Assembly (NCBI RefSeq): GCF_001027925.1
Contig: NZ_LECT01000014.1
Location: 1-64,000, forward strand
Reading direction: 5' to 3'
Length of the DNA stretch: 64,000 nt
DNA from: Rhodopirellula islandica
Lineage (GTDB): Bacteria; Planctomycetota; Planctomycetia; Pirellulales; Pirellulaceae
The translations under genes and the position numbers were made by a program. The notes below the pieces were generated by a model. That model saw only the letters and a list, made by a program, of their open reading frames with translations. It had not been told where the DNA came from and did no database searches. Positions 48,666 to 56,008 of this stretch are shown in pieces. Within the stretch, counting starts at the first letter, position 1; each line of letters starts with the position of its first letter.

Positions 48666-49814
48666 TCAGTCATCGAGGCTGAGACCGTAGTCCTTCATCT
48701 TCTTTGACAACGTGTTTCGGTTCATCCCCAAACGCGTGGCGGTCTTGGTCTGCACACCGCCGCATCGCAACAACAACTGAGAAATCAATTCGCGTTCGAC
48801 TTGATCCACCACCACCGAATGCAAATCCTCTGCCTCGTCGGCTTCGTCCAACCCTCGCTGAACAACGATTCGAGCGAGTGTCTTCAGATCCATTCGACTG
48901 AGATCAAACGCCGCAGCTGCTCCCGAGGATGCCTCCGCGGATTCAGGCGGCGTGTCGATGGAACCGTTGCCCATTGGTGCGATTGAACTCAACCCGCCTG
49001 CGGAGCTCGCCGATTCGCGCGTCGCGACGCTGCGTTGGGGATCACGCACACACAAGGGCAGCGCGTCGAGCACCAACTCGTCTGTGTCGCTCATCACGAC
49101 CGCTCGCTCCACATAGTTTTGAAGTTCGCGAACGTTTCCGGGCCAGTGGTAGTCCTGCAAAGCTCGCATCACACCGTTCCCGAGGTGCGAGACATAGCGG
49201 TCATTGACTTCGTTGTAGTGATCCAAGAAGAACGCCACGAGCGCCGGGATGTCTTCGCGTCGGTGTCGCAACGCTGGCAGCTCGATCGGCACCACATTCA
49301 AACGCCAGTAAAGGTCTTCCCGAAACTCATCGAGCTGCACTTGCCGCATCAAGTCACGGTTGCTGGCCGCGATGATTCGCGCGTCAGTTCGATGACTGGA
49401 AGTGTCACCGACTCGTTCGAATTCCTTTTCCTGCAACACCCGCAGCAGTTTGACCTGCAACGTCAACGTGGTGGAGTTGATCTCATCGAGAAAGATGCTG
49501 CCGCCGTCGGCGGCTTCGAAACGACCAGCGCGATTGGCAACGGCACCGGTGAAGGCACCTCGCACATGCCCAAACAATTCGCTTTCCAGCAAACTTTCGC
49601 TCAGCGCGCCGCAGTTGACTTTGACGAACGGGCCTCCGCTACGGTGACTCAATCGGTGCACCGCCGAAGCGATCAACTCCTTTCCTGTTCCGGTTTCTCC
49701 AAGGATCAGCACCGACGCATTGCTCACGGCAACCTTGCGGGTCACGCGATCGACTTCACGCATCGCGGGCGAATTGCCAATGACGCCGGGTAGGAGCTGT
49801 CCTCGAGAACTCAC
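48666..49814 (-). CDS. Sigma-54-dependent transcription activator without sensory domain
   Basis: A 382-residue enhancer-binding protein. The AAA+ domain starts at about residue 8 (GVIGNSPAM) and includes Walker A GETGTGKE, the sigma-54-contacting GAFTGA, Walker B GGSIFLDEI and WPGNVRELQNYVERAVVM. A C-terminal Fis-type helix-turn-helix ends the protein (LLRCGGVQTKTATRLGMNRNTLSKKMKDYGL). There is no N-terminal receiver, GAF or PAS domain, so it resembles PspF-like activators controlled in trans. It starts at GTG 49814, 4 nt after the nitroreductase stop. No -24/-12 target promoter was identified with confidence. Confidence 0.93.
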   Translation of the reverse strand: MSSRGQLLPGVIGNSPAMREVDRVTRKVAVSNASVLILGETGTGKELIASAVHRLSHRSGGPFVKVNCGALSESLLESELFGHVRGAFTGAVANRAGRFEAADGGSIFLDEINSTTLTLQVKLLRVLQEKEFERVGDTSSHRTDARIIAASNRDLMRQVQLDEFREDLYWRLNVVPIELPALRHRREDIPALVAFFLDHYNEVNDRYVSHLGNGVMRALQDYHWPGNVRELQNYVERAVVMSDTDELVLDALPLCVRDPQRSVATRESASSAGGLSSIAPMGNGSIDTPPESAEASSGAAAAFDLSRMDLKTLARIVVQRGLDEADEAEDLHSVVVDQVERELISQLLLRCGGVQTKTATRLGMNRNTLSKKMKDYGLSLDD

Positions 49815-49818
49815 AGAA

Positions 49819-50424
49819 TCACAACCAAGATGCGGATTGCCCGAATGCGTCCATGAAGACCTGATTCTTCAGTGGCGTTCGTTCTCGGACACCGCTCTGG
49901 CGGTCTTCTAACATCTGTTCCGCATCGGAGTTGGGTTCGCGTTCGTCGGCATACCCCATGGCGATCGCGGTGGCGGGCTCGTAGCCTTCCGGAATCTGAT
50001 ACTGGCCTCGGACCTGGCTCAGATTGACACCTGCCATTTGGTGCGTCTGCAAACCCAACGAGGTCGCTTGCAGAGACATCAGTGCGGCGGCGGCACCGAG
50101 GTCGTGCAGGGCGACTCGATTGGGTTTCTGGTTGTAAGAAAAATTGGTTCGAATGACGGTGCAGATCAGCACGCCTGCATGGGACGCCCAATCACGGTTG
50201 GCTTCCAACAGGCACTGCAACATGGCTTCAAAAGCCTCCCCGTCTTGGCGACGTGCGACAATCCACGACCATGGTTGATCGTTAAAACTGCTGGCAGCCC
50301 AGCGAGCGGCTTCCAAGCACTGACGCAATTTGTCATCTTCGACTTCACGCCCATCAAACCGATATGGGCTCCATCGATCAGCGATGACGGGCAAAACTTC
50401 CAGATCCGTTTCGTTGACTGCCAT
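49819..50424 (-). CDS. Nitroreductase-family FMN oxidoreductase
   Basis: A 201-residue nitroreductase-like flavoprotein. The N-terminal RWSPYRFDGREV and FNDQPWSWIVARR segments, GVLICTVI, ALHDLGAAAALMSLQATSLGL and the C-terminal IAMGYADERE fit the family. It probably uses FMN and NAD(P)H; the substrate is unknown. ATG 50424 (MAVNETDLE) is preferred to 50484. It is divergent from the aldehyde dehydrogenase across about 88 bp and is followed by the sigma-54 activator. Confidence 0.87.
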   Translation of the reverse strand: MAVNETDLEVLPVIADRWSPYRFDGREVEDDKLRQCLEAARWAASSFNDQPWSWIVARRQDGEAFEAMLQCLLEANRDWASHAGVLICTVIRTNFSYNQKPNRVALHDLGAAAALMSLQATSLGLQTHQMAGVNLSQVRGQYQIPEGYEPATAIAMGYADEREPNSDAEQMLEDRQSGVRERTPLKNQVFMDAFGQSASWL

Positions 50425-50512
50425 CTTCCATCCAACGCTTTGCAAGATTGTTTTGAACAACGTACCCCAGGTCGCCACGCCCAAAAACGCGACGCCAAAC
50501 CGCCCCGGTGAG

Positions 50513-51952
50513 GTGCCGATAGGTTATCACGGCGGTGCAAAGTGGGCTACGTGGTCGATTCGCCAACGCTGTCAAATTGTGAGTCGTGCACGCGACGAAA
50601 TCGCTTCGCGAGTCGATCAGTTGACACACTTCAGCCGGAGCAAACAACGGACCGACGATGCAGAAACGGTGGCGTCGGAATTGCTCCCCTTGTGCGAGGC
50701 ATTGCGGTGGATCGGCAAGCATGGGAAGAAAACGCTGGCACCCCGAAAAGTTGGATGGATCGGGCGTCCAATGTGGATGTGGGGCGTCCGCAGCGTCGTC
50801 CAACGAGTCCCCCTGGGGCGAGTCCTGATCCTCGGAACCTGGAACTACCCGCTGCTGTTGCCTGGCGTTCAAATGGCACAGGCCCTCGCCGCGGGGAATG
50901 AAGTTTGCCTCAAACCCGCCGCCGGGACCGAAGCCGTGTCCGCCGAATTGATCGCCGCTTTTTATGCCGCGGGCGTACCGGAACATGCGATCACGTTGCT
51001 GAATTCCACCACCGAGGCGGCGATCGAGGCCCAAGCCTCAGGCGTCGACTTGGTCGTCTTGACCGGATCCGTCGAAACCGGCCGAAAAGTCCTGCACCAA
51101 TCGGCCGAGAACCTGACCCCTTCGATCATGGAATTGTCCGGGGTGGATGCGGCGATCGTGCTGCCTCAGGCCGACCTCAACCGCGCAGTCGAGGCAGTCA
51201 CGTTTGGTCTGCTGTTCAACAGCGGTGCAACTTGCATCGGCCCGAGGCGACTGATGATCCAAACCGATCCATCCACCGCCGCCTTGCCAGAACGACTGAT
51301 CGATCGATTGCGAAAGACCAACGAAGTCACCCTTCATCCCGCGGCGCGGACCAGCACCGCCGACTTGCTGGACGATGTTCTCCGAAAAGGTGCCAAGGAC
51401 AGCCTGGGCCGGTACGATTCTGCCACCCTTCGCACCACCGGCAAGATGCACGCCGTGGTGCTTGAAAACGTCCCCGAGAGTCATGCCATTTTGCAAAGTG
51501 ACGTGTTCGCGCCCGTCATCTCGATCATCCCGGTCAAGCTGCCCGAGCACGCGGTCCAGATGGTCAATGCATGCCCGTATCGTCTGGCCGCCTCCGTGTT
51601 CGGCCCGACTTCCCAAGCTCAATCCATCGCGAAACAACTGGATGTCGGCGTGGTGACGATCAATGACTTGGTCGCACCCACGGCCGACCCCCGCTTGCCC
51701 TTTGGTGGTCGCGGCCAAAGTGGCTTCGGCGTGACGCGAGGCCCAGAAGGATTGCTCGCGATGACCACGCCTCGAGTCATTGCCACCCGACGCGGCCGCG
51801 TCGCGATGCACTTGTCACCTCGAAACGATGCCGATGCGGAATTGTTGTCCGGCGTACTGCAGTGGTCGCACAGCACCGGATGGACGCGGCGAATCGCAGC
51901 CCTCCGGCGAGTCACCACTGCCGCCGCTCAGTGGCGTGCATTAAAAAAGTAG
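50513..51952 (+). CDS. Aldehyde dehydrogenase, candidate carotenoid-aldehyde oxidase
   Basis: A 479-residue ALDH-superfamily enzyme oxidising an aldehyde to a carboxylate with NAD(P). Visible are PLGRVLILGTWNYPLLL, the catalytic Glu207 in MELSG and nucleophile Cys241 in GATCIGPRR, plus PFGGRGQSGFG. The hydrophobic C-terminus resembles fatty/isoprenoid aldehyde dehydrogenases. GTG 50513 fits best; the open frame upstream runs antisense to the nitroreductase gene. It heads a four-gene co-directional run with CrtI-type, acyltransferase and glycosyltransferase genes. By analogy with AldH of the staphyloxanthin pathway it would make the terminal carboxyl group of a C30 carotenoid. This is inference from context. 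Confidence 0.85.
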   Translation: MPIGYHGGAKWATWSIRQRCQIVSRARDEIASRVDQLTHFSRSKQRTDDAETVASELLPLCEALRWIGKHGKKTLAPRKVGWIGRPMWMWGVRSVVQRVPLGRVLILGTWNYPLLLPGVQMAQALAAGNEVCLKPAAGTEAVSAELIAAFYAAGVPEHAITLLNSTTEAAIEAQASGVDLVVLTGSVETGRKVLHQSAENLTPSIMELSGVDAAIVLPQADLNRAVEAVTFGLLFNSGATCIGPRRLMIQTDPSTAALPERLIDRLRKTNEVTLHPAARTSTADLLDDVLRKGAKDSLGRYDSATLRTTGKMHAVVLENVPESHAILQSDVFAPVISIIPVKLPEHAVQMVNACPYRLAASVFGPTSQAQSIAKQLDVGVVTINDLVAPTADPRLPFGGRGQSGFGVTRGPEGLLAMTTPRVIATRRGRVAMHLSPRNDADAELLSGVLQWSHSTGWTRRIAALRRVTTAAAQWRALKK

Positions 51953-52007
51953 TGCATGACGCACCCGCATTTGCCCGGAACGTTTCCCCACGGATCGAAA
52001 GCCCCCG

Positions 52008-53612
52008 ATGATCGCCCCCCATTCCGCCGCAAATGAACCCTACGCCCCGGCTGAGAAAACATCCAATCCACAACATGTCGTGGTGGTTGGCGGTGGATTG
52101 GCCGGATTGTCATCTGCCTGCGTGTTGGCCGCCCGCGGTCACAAGGTCACGCTTTGCGACAAAAACGATTGGGTCGGCGGCAAAGCGGCCGTGCATCAAA
52201 CCGAAGGCTACCGATTCGACATGGGGCCGACGATCCTGACGCTGCCGAGTGTCTTGCGTCGGGTCTTCACCGAAGCCGGGCGAAAGATGGAGGACTACCT
52301 CGATCTCATCGCCTTGGATCCGCAGTGGCGATGCTTCTTCGAAGGCACACCCCAATCAGGCACCCAAGAGAACACGGTGCTGGACTTGGTCGCTGACGTC
52401 GAACAGATGAAACGTCACCTGCGTGACTTCACTGGGGGCGACGCAACCGGCCAAGGTTACGAATCATTCATCGAGCGAAGCAAGCAACTTCACGGTGTCT
52501 CGGATCGATTCTTCTTTTGGCGATCGATCGGTGGGTTGGCCGACACCATGGAAGTCGGGGGTGCGTTTTCCGCCGCCGTGTTGAAAGATGTCCTGTCACT
52601 CAAGATGGGTCGCAGCGTCGCTTCGATCGTCCGCTCACACGTCCCTGAACATCGTGTGTCGCAAATGATGGATCACTTCACCCAGTACGTTGGCTCGTCG
52701 CCCTACGCGTCGCCTGCCGTCTTGTGCAGCATCGCTCACATGCAAACCGAAGAAGGCATTTGGTACCCGATCGGCGGCACGCGAGCGGTCCCCGAGGCAT
52801 TGTCAAAACTCGCTGGCGAACTCGGCGTTGACATCCGAACCGGAACCGACATCCTGCGGATCGAAACCGGAGGCGGATCGGTCAGCGGCGTGACCACAGC
52901 GGGCGGCGAAACGATTGCCTGCGATGCCGTGGTCAGCAACTGCGACGCGATTCGAACCTACCGCGAATTGCTCAGCGGTACACCGGAGTCGACCAAGTTC
53001 GAAAAGTCCAATCACTACGAAGCGGCCTGCAGTGGCGTGGTGCTGTACCTGGGACTGAACCGCCGCTACGAACAACTGCTGCACCACAACTTCGTGTTCT
53101 CCAAAGATCCGGAAGAAGAGTTCGACTACATCTACAAAAAAGGCCAACCAGCGCCCGATCCAACCGCGTACGTCTGTGCTCCCACGATCAGCGAACCCGA
53201 AGTGGCACCCGATGGCTGTGAAGCTCTCTATATCTTGGTGCACACGCCTTACCTGCGGCCCGGTCATGACTGGAAAGCCATGCTGCCGAACTACCGTGAC
53301 GTGATTCTGGACAAACTGGAACGAACCGCTGGGATGGAAGGCATTCGCGATGCGATTGTGACCGAAGATTCACTGACTCCGGAGGGCATCCACAATCGTT
53401 ACCGCGTTCTCAACGGCGCGATCTATGGTTTGGCCAGCCACGGCAAGTTCACCGGCGCCTTCAAACCTGGCAACCGTCGCAAGGACCTCCGTGGTTTGTA
53501 CCTGGCCGGCGGGGCGGCTCACCCCGGCCCTGGCATGCCGATGGTCTTGATGAGCGGCTGGATCGCAGCGGATTCGCTGGACCAAGACGTGACCAACGGA
53601 AAATTCGCGTGA
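52008..53612 (+). CDS. CrtI/CrtN/CrtP-type carotenoid desaturase or oxidase
   Basis: A 534-residue FAD flavoprotein of the phytoene-desaturase family. The N-terminal dinucleotide fold VVVVGGGLAGLSSACVLAARG, the GGKAAVHQTEGYRFDMGPTILTLP segment and the C-terminal YLAGGAAHPGPGMPMVLMSGW signature are clear. Whether it desaturates a C30/C40 polyene (CrtN/CrtI-like) or oxidises a terminal methyl to an aldehyde (CrtP-like) cannot be told without a phylogeny. It starts at ATG 52008 and overlaps the acyltransferase start by 4 nt (GTGA). Its position between the aldehyde dehydrogenase and acyltransferase genes favours the oxidase role. Confidence 0.9.
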   Translation: MIAPHSAANEPYAPAEKTSNPQHVVVVGGGLAGLSSACVLAARGHKVTLCDKNDWVGGKAAVHQTEGYRFDMGPTILTLPSVLRRVFTEAGRKMEDYLDLIALDPQWRCFFEGTPQSGTQENTVLDLVADVEQMKRHLRDFTGGDATGQGYESFIERSKQLHGVSDRFFFWRSIGGLADTMEVGGAFSAAVLKDVLSLKMGRSVASIVRSHVPEHRVSQMMDHFTQYVGSSPYASPAVLCSIAHMQTEEGIWYPIGGTRAVPEALSKLAGELGVDIRTGTDILRIETGGGSVSGVTTAGGETIACDAVVSNCDAIRTYRELLSGTPESTKFEKSNHYEAACSGVVLYLGLNRRYEQLLHHNFVFSKDPEEEFDYIYKKGQPAPDPTAYVCAPTISEPEVAPDGCEALYILVHTPYLRPGHDWKAMLPNYRDVILDKLERTAGMEGIRDAIVTEDSLTPEGIHNRYRVLNGAIYGLASHGKFTGAFKPGNRRKDLRGLYLAGGAAHPGPGMPMVLMSGWIAADSLDQDVTNGKFA

Positions 53613-54460
53613 CGGCAGCCTCCGACGTCATTGCGAAACCGGCGGATTGGTTTCAAAACGGATTTCATCGGTTCCTGCACTCCTACCTTCGTCGCAACTT
53701 CCACGCGATCGCGTTCGCACGTGAAACGGAATTGCAGACGCAGTTTCATTCGTTGGCCGAAGCAAACCCAGAACACGCCCAGGCCTCACCGCTGCAGGAC
53801 GGCAGCCTTCCGCTGATCGTCTACAGCAATCACGCCTCGTGGTGGGATCCATTGCTGGCTCACGCGATCAACGAACGGCTGCTCGCGCCGCGACAGTTCT
53901 ATGCACCGATCGATGCGGAGGCACTCCAGCAATACAAGGTTTTCGAAAAGCTGGGCTTCTTCGGCGTGCAATCGGATTCGAATCGAGGCGCCGCCCAATT
54001 CCTCAAGACCACCGCGGCCTTGTTCCAGCGTGAACACAGTGCGTTGTGGGTCACCCCCGAAGGACGCTTCGCAGACGTTCGCGATCACGAGGCGGAATTG
54101 ATGCCCGGTCTGGCTCACGTGTGTTCGAAACTGGACCGCGGCTGGGTCCTGCCGCTGGCGATGGAATATGTGTTTTGGGACGAGCGTTTACCGCTGGTCT
54201 TGTTCCGTTTCGGCGATGTCATCTCAATCCCCACCGTGAGTGACTGGGACAAATCTCATTGGTCGGCCGAGCTCACGCGGCGTCTTCGGACCAGTCAATC
54301 GCGATTGGCGGAATTGTGCATCCAGCGATCGAGCGAACCGTTTCAAAATCTACTGCCAGGCAAACGCGGAGCTTCCGGTATGTATGACACGGCTAGGCGA
54401 TTGAAGTCGTGGATGACCGGCCAATCATTCCAAGCCAGTCACGGGGACCAGTTTCAATGA
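53609..54460 (+). CDS. PlsC-type acyltransferase, candidate carotenoid-sugar acyltransferase
   Basis: A 283-residue lysophospholipid-acyltransferase-fold protein. The catalytic NHASWWD (HX4D) and the TPEGRF block are present, plus a hydrophobic stretch near GWVLPLAMEYVFW. General members acylate glycerol-3-phosphate derivatives. In this operon the likely acceptor is a glycosylated carotenoid, as for staphyloxanthin CrtO (inference). It starts at GTG 53609 overlapping the desaturase stop, and its own stop overlaps the glycosyltransferase start in ATGA. Confidence 0.87.
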   Translation: MTAASDVIAKPADWFQNGFHRFLHSYLRRNFHAIAFARETELQTQFHSLAEANPEHAQASPLQDGSLPLIVYSNHASWWDPLLAHAINERLLAPRQFYAPIDAEALQQYKVFEKLGFFGVQSDSNRGAAQFLKTTAALFQREHSALWVTPEGRFADVRDHEAELMPGLAHVCSKLDRGWVLPLAMEYVFWDERLPLVLFRFGDVISIPTVSDWDKSHWSAELTRRLRTSQSRLAELCIQRSSEPFQNLLPGKRGASGMYDTARRLKSWMTGQSFQASHGDQFQ

Positions 54461-55674
54461 TCGCTTGGATGGAATGGTTCCTCATCGCGGTCCTGCCGTT
54501 TGTCTCGTTGGTTCTGGCGGCGCTGGCGGCGGGCATGTTCGTGTCCAATTTGCCACTGTTCATGGACGGCAAACGATCCGATCACGTCGACGCATCTGAA
54601 TCGGGCGGCACCGATCCTCCTCGCGTGTCGGTGTTGATCCCAGCCAGAAACGAAGAGAGCTCGATCGCGGCTTGTATCGAATCCGTGTTGCGATCCGTGC
54701 AGGTCGACCTGGAGGCCATTGTGCTGGACGACGGCTCCACGGATCAAACCGGAACGATCGTTCGCGAAATCGCACAGCGAGACTCGCGAGTAAAGTTGAT
54801 CGAAGGCATCGAACTTCCCGAAGGCTGGAATGGCAAGCAACATGCCTGTTACCGACTGGCTCAGCATGCCGAATGCGAACACCTGTTGTTCTTGGACGCC
54901 GACGTGCGACTGGAACCGACCGCCCTGATCGATCTTTGCCGACGTTTCGCGGTTGAACACGATGGCGGCAAAATGGGTTTGCTCAGTGCCTTCCCTCGGC
55001 AGGAAACCGGCACACTGGCCGAGAAACTCTTGATCCCGATGATGCACTTCATCTTGCTTTCGTACCTGCCGTTCGCGCGGATGCGAGGCAGCACGCACCC
55101 GGCGTACGCGTCCGGATGTGGGCAACTGTTCTTCACAACCCAGGCCGCCTACCAGGCCGCGGGGACTCATGCTGCAATTCGATCGAGTCGCCATGATGGG
55201 CTGAAACTACCCAAGGCCTATCGAGAAAACGGGATGCTGACGGACTGCGTGGACGGGTCGCAGTGGGCGGTTTGCCGGATGTACACGTCGGCGGGGGAGG
55301 TGGTGCAGGGGCTGCTCAAGAACGCAGACGAAGGCATCGCGAATTCTCGGTTGTTGATTCCGTTCACGATTTTGTTGGGCGGAGCCAATCTGTTGCCGTG
55401 GATCACGTTGGTCATTGCCTTGGCAAAGCGGTCCAGCCTGATCGTTGAAGGCTTGCCGGTTTCGACGTCGGTGGTGATCGGGATCCTGGTCAGCACGATC
55501 GCGATTTTGGTGAGCTACGTGCCTCGAATGACCGGGGCGATCCGGCTGGGGCAGAGCGTCACGGGAGCGATCCTGCACCCGATTGCGATCGTCAGTTTCC
55601 TGCTGATCCAGTGGTGGGCATTCTGGAATCACCTCCGAGGCCGACAAGTCACCTGGCGCGGCCGCCTGGGCTGA
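54457..55674 (+). CDS. Membrane GT2 glycosyltransferase, CrtQ-like
   Basis: A 405-residue integral-membrane family 2 glycosyltransferase. An N-terminal helix (WFLIAVLPFVSLVLAALAAGM) precedes the catalytic domain with VSVLIPARNEE, VLDDGSTDQT and the DXD-type LFLDADVRL. Three or so C-terminal helices follow (LLIPFTILLGGANLLPWITLVIALA, VVIGILVSTIAILVSYV, PIAIVSFLLIQWWAF). The layout and length resemble CrtQ, which glucosylates the C30 carotenoic acid in staphyloxanthin synthesis. ATG 54457 overlaps the acyltransferase stop. It is the last gene of the run. Confidence 0.88.
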   Translation: MIAWMEWFLIAVLPFVSLVLAALAAGMFVSNLPLFMDGKRSDHVDASESGGTDPPRVSVLIPARNEESSIAACIESVLRSVQVDLEAIVLDDGSTDQTGTIVREIAQRDSRVKLIEGIELPEGWNGKQHACYRLAQHAECEHLLFLDADVRLEPTALIDLCRRFAVEHDGGKMGLLSAFPRQETGTLAEKLLIPMMHFILLSYLPFARMRGSTHPAYASGCGQLFFTTQAAYQAAGTHAAIRSSRHDGLKLPKAYRENGMLTDCVDGSQWAVCRMYTSAGEVVQGLLKNADEGIANSRLLIPFTILLGGANLLPWITLVIALAKRSSLIVEGLPVSTSVVIGILVSTIAILVSYVPRMTGAIRLGQSVTGAILHPIAIVSFLLIQWWAFWNHLRGRQVTWRGRLG

Positions 55675-55701
55675 CGCACGCTGCTTCCCACCGAAGATGA
55701 C

Positions 55702-55821
55702 CATGGGTTGAAAACCCAAGGCTTTCGGCTGCCGTCGCTCCGCGACTGGTTGTGCGTGTCGGGGTGAGCTAACAACCGCGGAGCGGTGACAGTTGTCAGC
55801 CTCGGGTTTTCAACCCGAGGT
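55702..55821. repeat. ~120-bp intergenic repeat element, copy 2 (inverted)
   Basis: This is the opposite-orientation copy of the element at 124-240. It shares the order TTGAAAACCCAAGGC, TTTCGGCTG, CGTCGCTCCGCGACTGG, CGCGGAGCGGTGACAGTTGTCAGCCTCGGG (in parts) and the terminal hairpin. The centre (about 20 bp) has diverged most. Confidence 0.85.
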
Positions 55822-55894
55822 CTCGATACAACCTCCTGACTCGACAAGCCGCTCGGGACGCGCGAAAAACAAATGGTGGCTGGCGTCTCGGTTT

Positions 55895-55987
55895 CGCCCC
55901 GGATGGGGCCGTCGTACTTAGCTCGGGGCGGAAGCCCCGAGAGACCGATACCGGAAAACAAACGGTCGCCCCGGACGGGGCCGTCGT
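55895..55987. repeat. Direct pair of GGGGCC hairpins around a third stem
   Basis: CGCCCCGGATGGGGCCGTCG (55895-55914) and CGCCCCGGACGGGGCCGTCG (55967-55986) differ at one base. Between them CTCGGGGC/GCCCCGAG forms a stem with a GGAA loop (55922-55941). The same class of hairpin is seen near 7195-7212. Confidence 0.75.
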
Positions 55988-56008
55988 GGGATTTTGGGGA
56001 GTCCCTCG

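Follow-up and report, generated by a model that had tools for sequence, protein, structure and literature searches.

The 64,000-nucleotide stretch of the Rhodopirellula islandica genome analysed here (contig NZ_LECT01000014.1, positions 1 to 64,000; hereafter the window) carries a run of four co-directional genes, encoding an aldehyde dehydrogenase, a CrtI-family flavoprotein, an acyltransferase and a glycosyltransferase, which we are highly confident form the tailoring operon of a squalene-route C30 carotenoid pathway. Judged from its sequence, the locus is a new example of this known pathway and not a staphyloxanthin operon proper, since CrtM and an acyltransferase of the CrtO type are absent. 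The genome comprises 7,433,200 bases in 55 contigs, the window lying on contig C14. A literature search of partial coverage, by titles and abstract openings, returned no paper on these genes in Rhodopirellula. The genes are as follows.

50513-51952, + strand: aldH, aldehyde dehydrogenase; GTG start, 479 amino acids; PF00171 (Aldedh) 289.5 bits
52008-53612, + strand: crtP, CrtI-family flavoprotein, putative C30 carotenoid terminal-methyl oxidase; ATG start, 534 amino acids; TIGR02734 (crtI_fam) 404.6 bits (cut-off 238.1)
53609-54460, + strand: PlsC-type (lysophospholipid acyltransferase family) acyltransferase, putatively in the crtO role; GTG start, 283 amino acids; PF01553 37.6 bits (cut-off 23)
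54457-55674, + strand: membrane GT2 glycosyltransferase, putatively in the crtQ role; ATG start, 405 amino acids; PF00535 76.4 bits (cut-off 23.3)

A spacer of 55 nucleotides separates aldH from crtP, while crtP shares GTGA (53609-53612) with the acyltransferase gene, and the latter shares ATGA (54457-54460) with the GT2 gene. An earlier sequence-only reading of this DNA had described four co-directional genes, the last three with 4-nucleotide overlaps, and a check of the open reading frames and the sequence agrees with it. The four genes are probably co-transcribed. A consensus scan gave 0 promoter-like and 4 terminator-like sites, not above the level of shuffled sequence.

The flavoprotein and its partner enzymes

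In a 47-row tree the window flavoprotein falls into one clade with the CrtP of Staphylococcus xylosus and with alphaproteobacterial and planctomycete CrtPs (support 100/98). The same clade was recovered at 100/100 in a second tree of 45 rows with the long outgroups removed; this second tree omits HpnE, the three amine oxidases and a further five rows that were divergent or broken. CrtN, the CrtI proteins of Pantoea and Thermus, HpnE and amine oxidases, all of which had been considered as identities for the flavoprotein, lie outside the CrtP clade. The sequence-only reading had asked for this phylogeny and had named clustering with non-carotenoid amine oxidases as the outcome that would speak against it; in the 47-row tree the three amine oxidases of the same genome group instead with HpnE, on long branches and apart from the CrtI family. 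Amine oxidases, HpnE and S. xylosus CrtN all sit on long branches, and their exact positions are unsure. Row labels were assigned before tree building, and two rows labelled CrtN (G107 and G116) fell with the Pantoea CrtI. The flavoprotein is 62% identical to the cassette protein of Azospirillum brasilense and 56-62% identical to four alphaproteobacterial CrtPs. Its closest named relatives among the matches listed are those of Rhodopirellula sallentina (84%) and R. solitaria (83%), and its nearly full-length structure matches are phytoene dehydrogenase (4dgk) and gamma-carotene desaturase (4rep).

Motifs that we take to be of functional importance are preserved in the three partner enzymes: Asn111, Glu207 and Cys241 are invariant in an alignment of 13 cassette AldHs including that of the window, His75-x4-Asp80 and Gly152 of the PEG motif in 14 acyltransferase sequences, and Asp91-Asp92 and Asp147-Ala-Asp149 in 15 GT2 sequences. 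With these motifs intact, the cassette enzymes look functional. The GT2 protein is 41-46% identical to four alphaproteobacterial cassette GT2s and 25% (E 9e-24) to S. xylosus CrtQ, and its solved-structure matches are partial only. The acyltransferase gave no solved-structure match up to E 0.1. It was also considered as a CrtO and rejected, because it belongs to the PlsC family (PF01553) and BLAST detected no similarity to S. xylosus CrtO; the nearest match to the four-gene run is therefore a squalene-route cassette, and not the staphylococcal operon.

Backbone supply and the proposed route

No squalene/phytoene synthase gene (PF00494, SQS_PSY) lies within the window, and the only two in the genome are both on contig C1. 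This agrees with the sequence-only reading, which had noted the lack of crtM and hpnC/D in the window and had concluded that the backbone must come from elsewhere. The genome search located the likely source: the two synthase genes and a following hpnE form an hpnC-hpnD-hpnE tandem, in which HpnC scores 317.5 bits (NCBIfam cut-off 250.45) and HpnE 482.1 bits (cut-off 283.05), and the gene between them is best matched by the HpnD model. A second CrtI-family protein, encoded on contig C44 (TIGR02734, 595 bits), shares a clade with cassette-encoded CrtNs in both trees. CrtM was not found in the genome, and in a synthase tree S. xylosus CrtM stands apart from the genome's HpnC and HpnD, with weak deep support.

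As a separate observation, directly 3' of hpnE (L015:9175-11688, G000:C1) one frame of 837 amino acids combines a region resembling photolyases (residues 12-461 by the phr2 model, at 273 bits and under the cut-off; PF00875 over its cut-off) with a region resembling amine oxidases that use flavin adenine dinucleotide, which begins at about residue 473.

Homologous gene sets have been dissected by deletion in two alphaproteobacteria, A. brasilense and Methylobacterium extorquens. In A. brasilense Sp7, carotenoids are lost when either hpnCDE or crtNPOQ is deleted, and the crtNPOQ mutant accumulates squalene; aldH accompanies crtNPOQ, hpnCDE is at a separate locus, and the end products are stated to be unknown (PMC13274349). 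The same enzymes are encoded in a plasmid locus of A. brasilense MTCC4038 (L156), which we assume to be equivalent to the Sp7 cluster and in which CrtP is 62%, GT2 46%, AldH 42% and the acyltransferase 33% identical to the window proteins. In that locus, however, crtN is within the cluster and aldH is divergent, whereas in Rhodopirellula crtN is on another contig and aldH is the first gene of the run. In M. extorquens AM1, whose product structure is known, the genes META1p3663-3665 encode a glycosyltransferase, a lysophospholipid-type acyltransferase and CrtP acting on a squalene backbone, a likeness that we draw by description only. Mutants of AM1 lacking the glycosyltransferase gene accumulate the free diacid, those lacking the acyltransferase gene yield several peaks, one at the mass of the glucoside, and crtP mutants are colourless, which led the authors to the view that finished diapolycopene is not a substrate of CrtP (PMC10448405). 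Within the Pirellulaceae, an hpnD deletion mutant of Stieleria maiorica is white (PMC11958385), and the four-gene cassette is also present in Stieleria tagensis. Another planctomycete, though of a different family, offers a further parallel. Santana-Molina et al. reportedly described in 2022 an HpnCDE squalene route to C30 carotenoids in Planctopirus limnophila.

On this basis HpnC, HpnD and HpnE would convert farnesyl diphosphate to squalene, which CrtN would then desaturate. CrtP (52008-53612) would oxidise terminal methyl groups, probably during ongoing desaturation, as the colourless crtP mutants of M. extorquens suggest that the enzyme is active while the polyene is being made. AldH (50513-51952) would turn the resulting C30 polyene aldehyde into a carboxylic acid, the GT2 enzyme (54457-55674) would link a sugar to the carotenoic acid through an ester bond, and the PlsC-type acyltransferase (53609-54460) would place a fatty acid on that sugar. 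The substrates, the order of the steps and the nature of the sugar and acyl group are proposed by analogy; the predicted pigment is a pink, membrane-located acyl-glucosyl 4,4'-diapolycopenoate or -dioate.

The sequence-only reading had described the run as the terminal steps of staphyloxanthin-like C30 synthesis, and this is supported, with corrections. The placement of the flavoprotein in the CrtP clade, the hpnCDE and crtN genes elsewhere in the genome and the homologous sets deletion-tested in A. brasilense Sp7 and M. extorquens AM1 speak for it, but the word terminal is slightly too narrow given the colourless crtP mutants, and neither CrtM nor a CrtO-type acyltransferase was found. The staphylococcal crtOPQMN operon, represented by an S. 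xylosus plasmid stretch (L160), shares with the window a CrtP of the same clade and a homologous GT2 (25%). It differs in having crtM and crtN within the run, in a CrtO that shows no detectable similarity to the acyltransferase of the window and in listing no aldH, although the gene table of that plasmid is incomplete.

Conservation and spread of the cassette

The order aldH-crtP-acyltransferase-GT2 is kept in 13/13 genomes of the genus (the window and 12 further loci), and this arrangement is therefore not due to chance; crtP is in two overlapping pieces in one of these loci (L248), and in another genome (G242) the GT2 match is in two pieces with one stop. Against three same-genus loci, the ratio of non-synonymous to synonymous substitution rates (dN/dS) of the four genes is 0.021-0.165, the nitroreductase row of L249 having been left out of this set. 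A cassette known from alphaproteobacterial deletion mutants is thus extended to all 13 Rhodopirellula genomes, with aldH as part of the run.

Among 119 Pirellulaceae genomes, 39 encode CrtP (at least 65% identity to the window protein) and 36 encode AldH (E<=1e-60), 35 of the latter being CrtP-positive. Every one of the 39 has a second CrtI-family gene whose product shares 27-39% identity with the window protein (two of these genes are in pieces, two contain stops, and most are outside the trees); such a gene is also present in at least four CrtP-negative genomes (G162, G176, G197, G223). Two squalene/phytoene synthase genes are found in 34 of the CrtP-positive genomes, three in three and one in two, while 37 of the other 80 genomes have one or more. 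In 38 Pirellulaceae relatives, crtP is adjoined by aldH in 30, by the acyltransferase and GT2 genes in 24, by all of these in 20 and by crtN in 6. A lone, divergent gene of the squalene/phytoene synthase family lies beside crtN in three loci (L263 of G159, L264 of G132 and L261 of G162) and forms a group of its own (100/100). The combination of crtP with this single divergent synthase in G159 and G132 suggests that another backbone enzyme may operate there.

Beyond the family, a draw of 129 Planctomycetota genomes contained, besides that of the window, five with a CrtP at 62-67% identity and three at 48-51%; the phylum-wide GT2 query was too unspecific for counting, as 126 of the 129 genomes match something. 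A wider survey covered the best 80 of at least 573 confirmed CrtP relatives in named genomes, genes being scored within the fetched stretch. The acyltransferase is encoded in 64 of these 80 loci, aldH in 58, GT2 in 56 and CrtN in 47; aldH, acyltransferase and GT2 occur together in 37 and all five genes in 26, one of which (L170) depends on a weak partial CrtN match. The 80 loci belong to Planctomycetota (53), Pseudomonadota (13), Verrucomicrobiota (9) and Acidobacteriota (4), with one unassigned. The fuller cassette including crtN is found in four phyla and on plasmids of A. brasilense and Microvirga, and exchange of the cassette between phyla appears likely because the window CrtP is so close (56-62%) to the alphaproteobacterial CrtPs. 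On the plasmid of Microvirga ossetica a single gene of the squalene/phytoene synthase family with 553 codons adjoins the cassette (L157:11400-13058); each of its parts clusters with one of the two Palleronia synthases (99/99 in both cases), and the gene therefore resembles an HpnC-HpnD fusion.

Alternative readings and neighbouring sequences

Several observations weigh against the proposed squalene-route operon. The middle gene of the tandem, best matched by HpnD, reaches only 225.8 bits with that model against a cut-off of 278.6, and the S. xylosus CrtN joins the CrtN group of the genome weakly (unresolved in the 47-row tree, 90/73 in the 45-row tree). Four CrtP-positive genomes (G140, G155, G203, G210) lack an AldH reaching E<=1e-60, cassette AldHs vary by lineage, that of Microvirga being 28% identical to the window protein, and no aldehyde dehydrogenase of the pathway has been identified in M. 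extorquens AM1 (PMC10448405), whereas the Rhodopirellula run opens with aldH. In 14 of the 38 CrtP-bearing Pirellulaceae relatives no acyltransferase and GT2 genes adjoin, so the acylation and glycosylation steps are not universal; one of these loci (L111) stops at a contig end. The genes 3' of crtP in 14 loci of this kind (13 of Pirellulaceae and L134 of another family, L111 excluded) seem, by eye, unrelated. The best NCBIfam model for GT2 is HpnB, at 117 bits and far under the cut-off of 379. Finally, the window's genome gave one match to the lycopene cyclase family PF05834, the only cyclase family covered; it spans 37 N-terminal residues at 23.6 bits (cut-off 23.4). In addition, C40 pigments have been reported from the Pirellulaceae.

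The last point leads to the alternative that the cassette decorates a C40 carotenoid of the saproxanthin type. A 2025 review (PMC12078418) reports the identification of C40 and C45 carotenoids from two marine strains of the Pirellulaceae and describes the type strain of R. rubra as a C40 producer. Thermus, moreover, has an acyltransferase-glycosyltransferase pair in the neighbourhood of a CrtI and of a protein with a lycopene cyclase domain, and over 232 amino acids the glycosyltransferase of that pair shares 37% identity with the window GT2. In six other Pirellulaceae genomes a Pantoea-type CrtI adjoins a CrtB-like synthase that groups with CrtB (88/98). However, a third synthase gene that could encode a phytoene synthase is found in 0/13 genus genomes, each of which has two only, in tandem (HpnC and HpnD in the window's genome), although the R. 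rubra genome was not identified among the 13. PF04240, which we take to be the CruF hydratase, is likewise found in 0/13, the control being positive in 3/14. C40 genes were thus sought elsewhere in the window's genome and set aside, the short PF05834 match alone remaining just above its cut-off. With a flavoprotein of the CrtP type in addition, we consider decoration of a C40 carotenoid very improbable.

A broader proposition, on which we are evenly divided, is that Rhodopirellula makes no C40 carotenoid, that its pink pigments are squalene-derived acyl-glucosyl C30 diapolycopene acids, and that the saproxanthin-type C40/C45 assignment for R. rubra needs re-examination. Should the C40 report hold, either a phytoene synthase that has escaped recognition or a promiscuous HpnD would have to be at work in these bacteria. 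The disagreement among planctomycetes (C30 in Planctopirus, C40/C45 in Pirellulaceae) becomes testable because no C40 entry enzyme is recognised in the genus. In three of the family's genomes (G186, G201, G225; loci L255, L256, L257), crtP coexists with a Pantoea-type CrtI beside a CrtB-like synthase, and these organisms may produce C30 and C40 carotenoids side by side.

A true staphyloxanthin-type route, in which CrtM would make dehydrosqualene and the cassette would finish the pigment, shares the activity set of CrtP, AldH, GT2 and acyltransferase, and the sub-threshold HpnD of the genome is related to CrtM (25% identity). With no CrtM found in the genome, HpnC and HpnE over their cut-offs and an acyltransferase that is not of the CrtO type, this route is even harder to credit. 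PlsC-type acyltransferases usually act on lipids, and together with the HpnB match of GT2 this could suggest that the two last genes serve hopanoids or other membrane lipids as mere neighbours of crtP. This is the least plausible of the alternatives, as the frames overlap crtP, the linkage holds in 13/13 genus genomes and in four phyla (hopanoid genes were not searched for), and deletion of the corresponding M. extorquens genes changes carotenoid products (PMC10448405).

Next to the squalene-route operon, a sigma-54 activator gene and a nitroreductase-family gene (48666-50484, - strand) are divergent from aldH; the activator stands beside the cassette in 12/12 same-genus loci and the nitroreductase gene in 5/12. 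On the other side, 3' of the GT2 gene, the interval 55695-55990 contains palindromic segments such as GGTTGAAAACCC (2 in the window), which resemble intergenic repeats. Far from the cassette, an Acido-Lenti-1 RNA match lies at 194-239 on the - strand (45.4 bits, gathering score 37).

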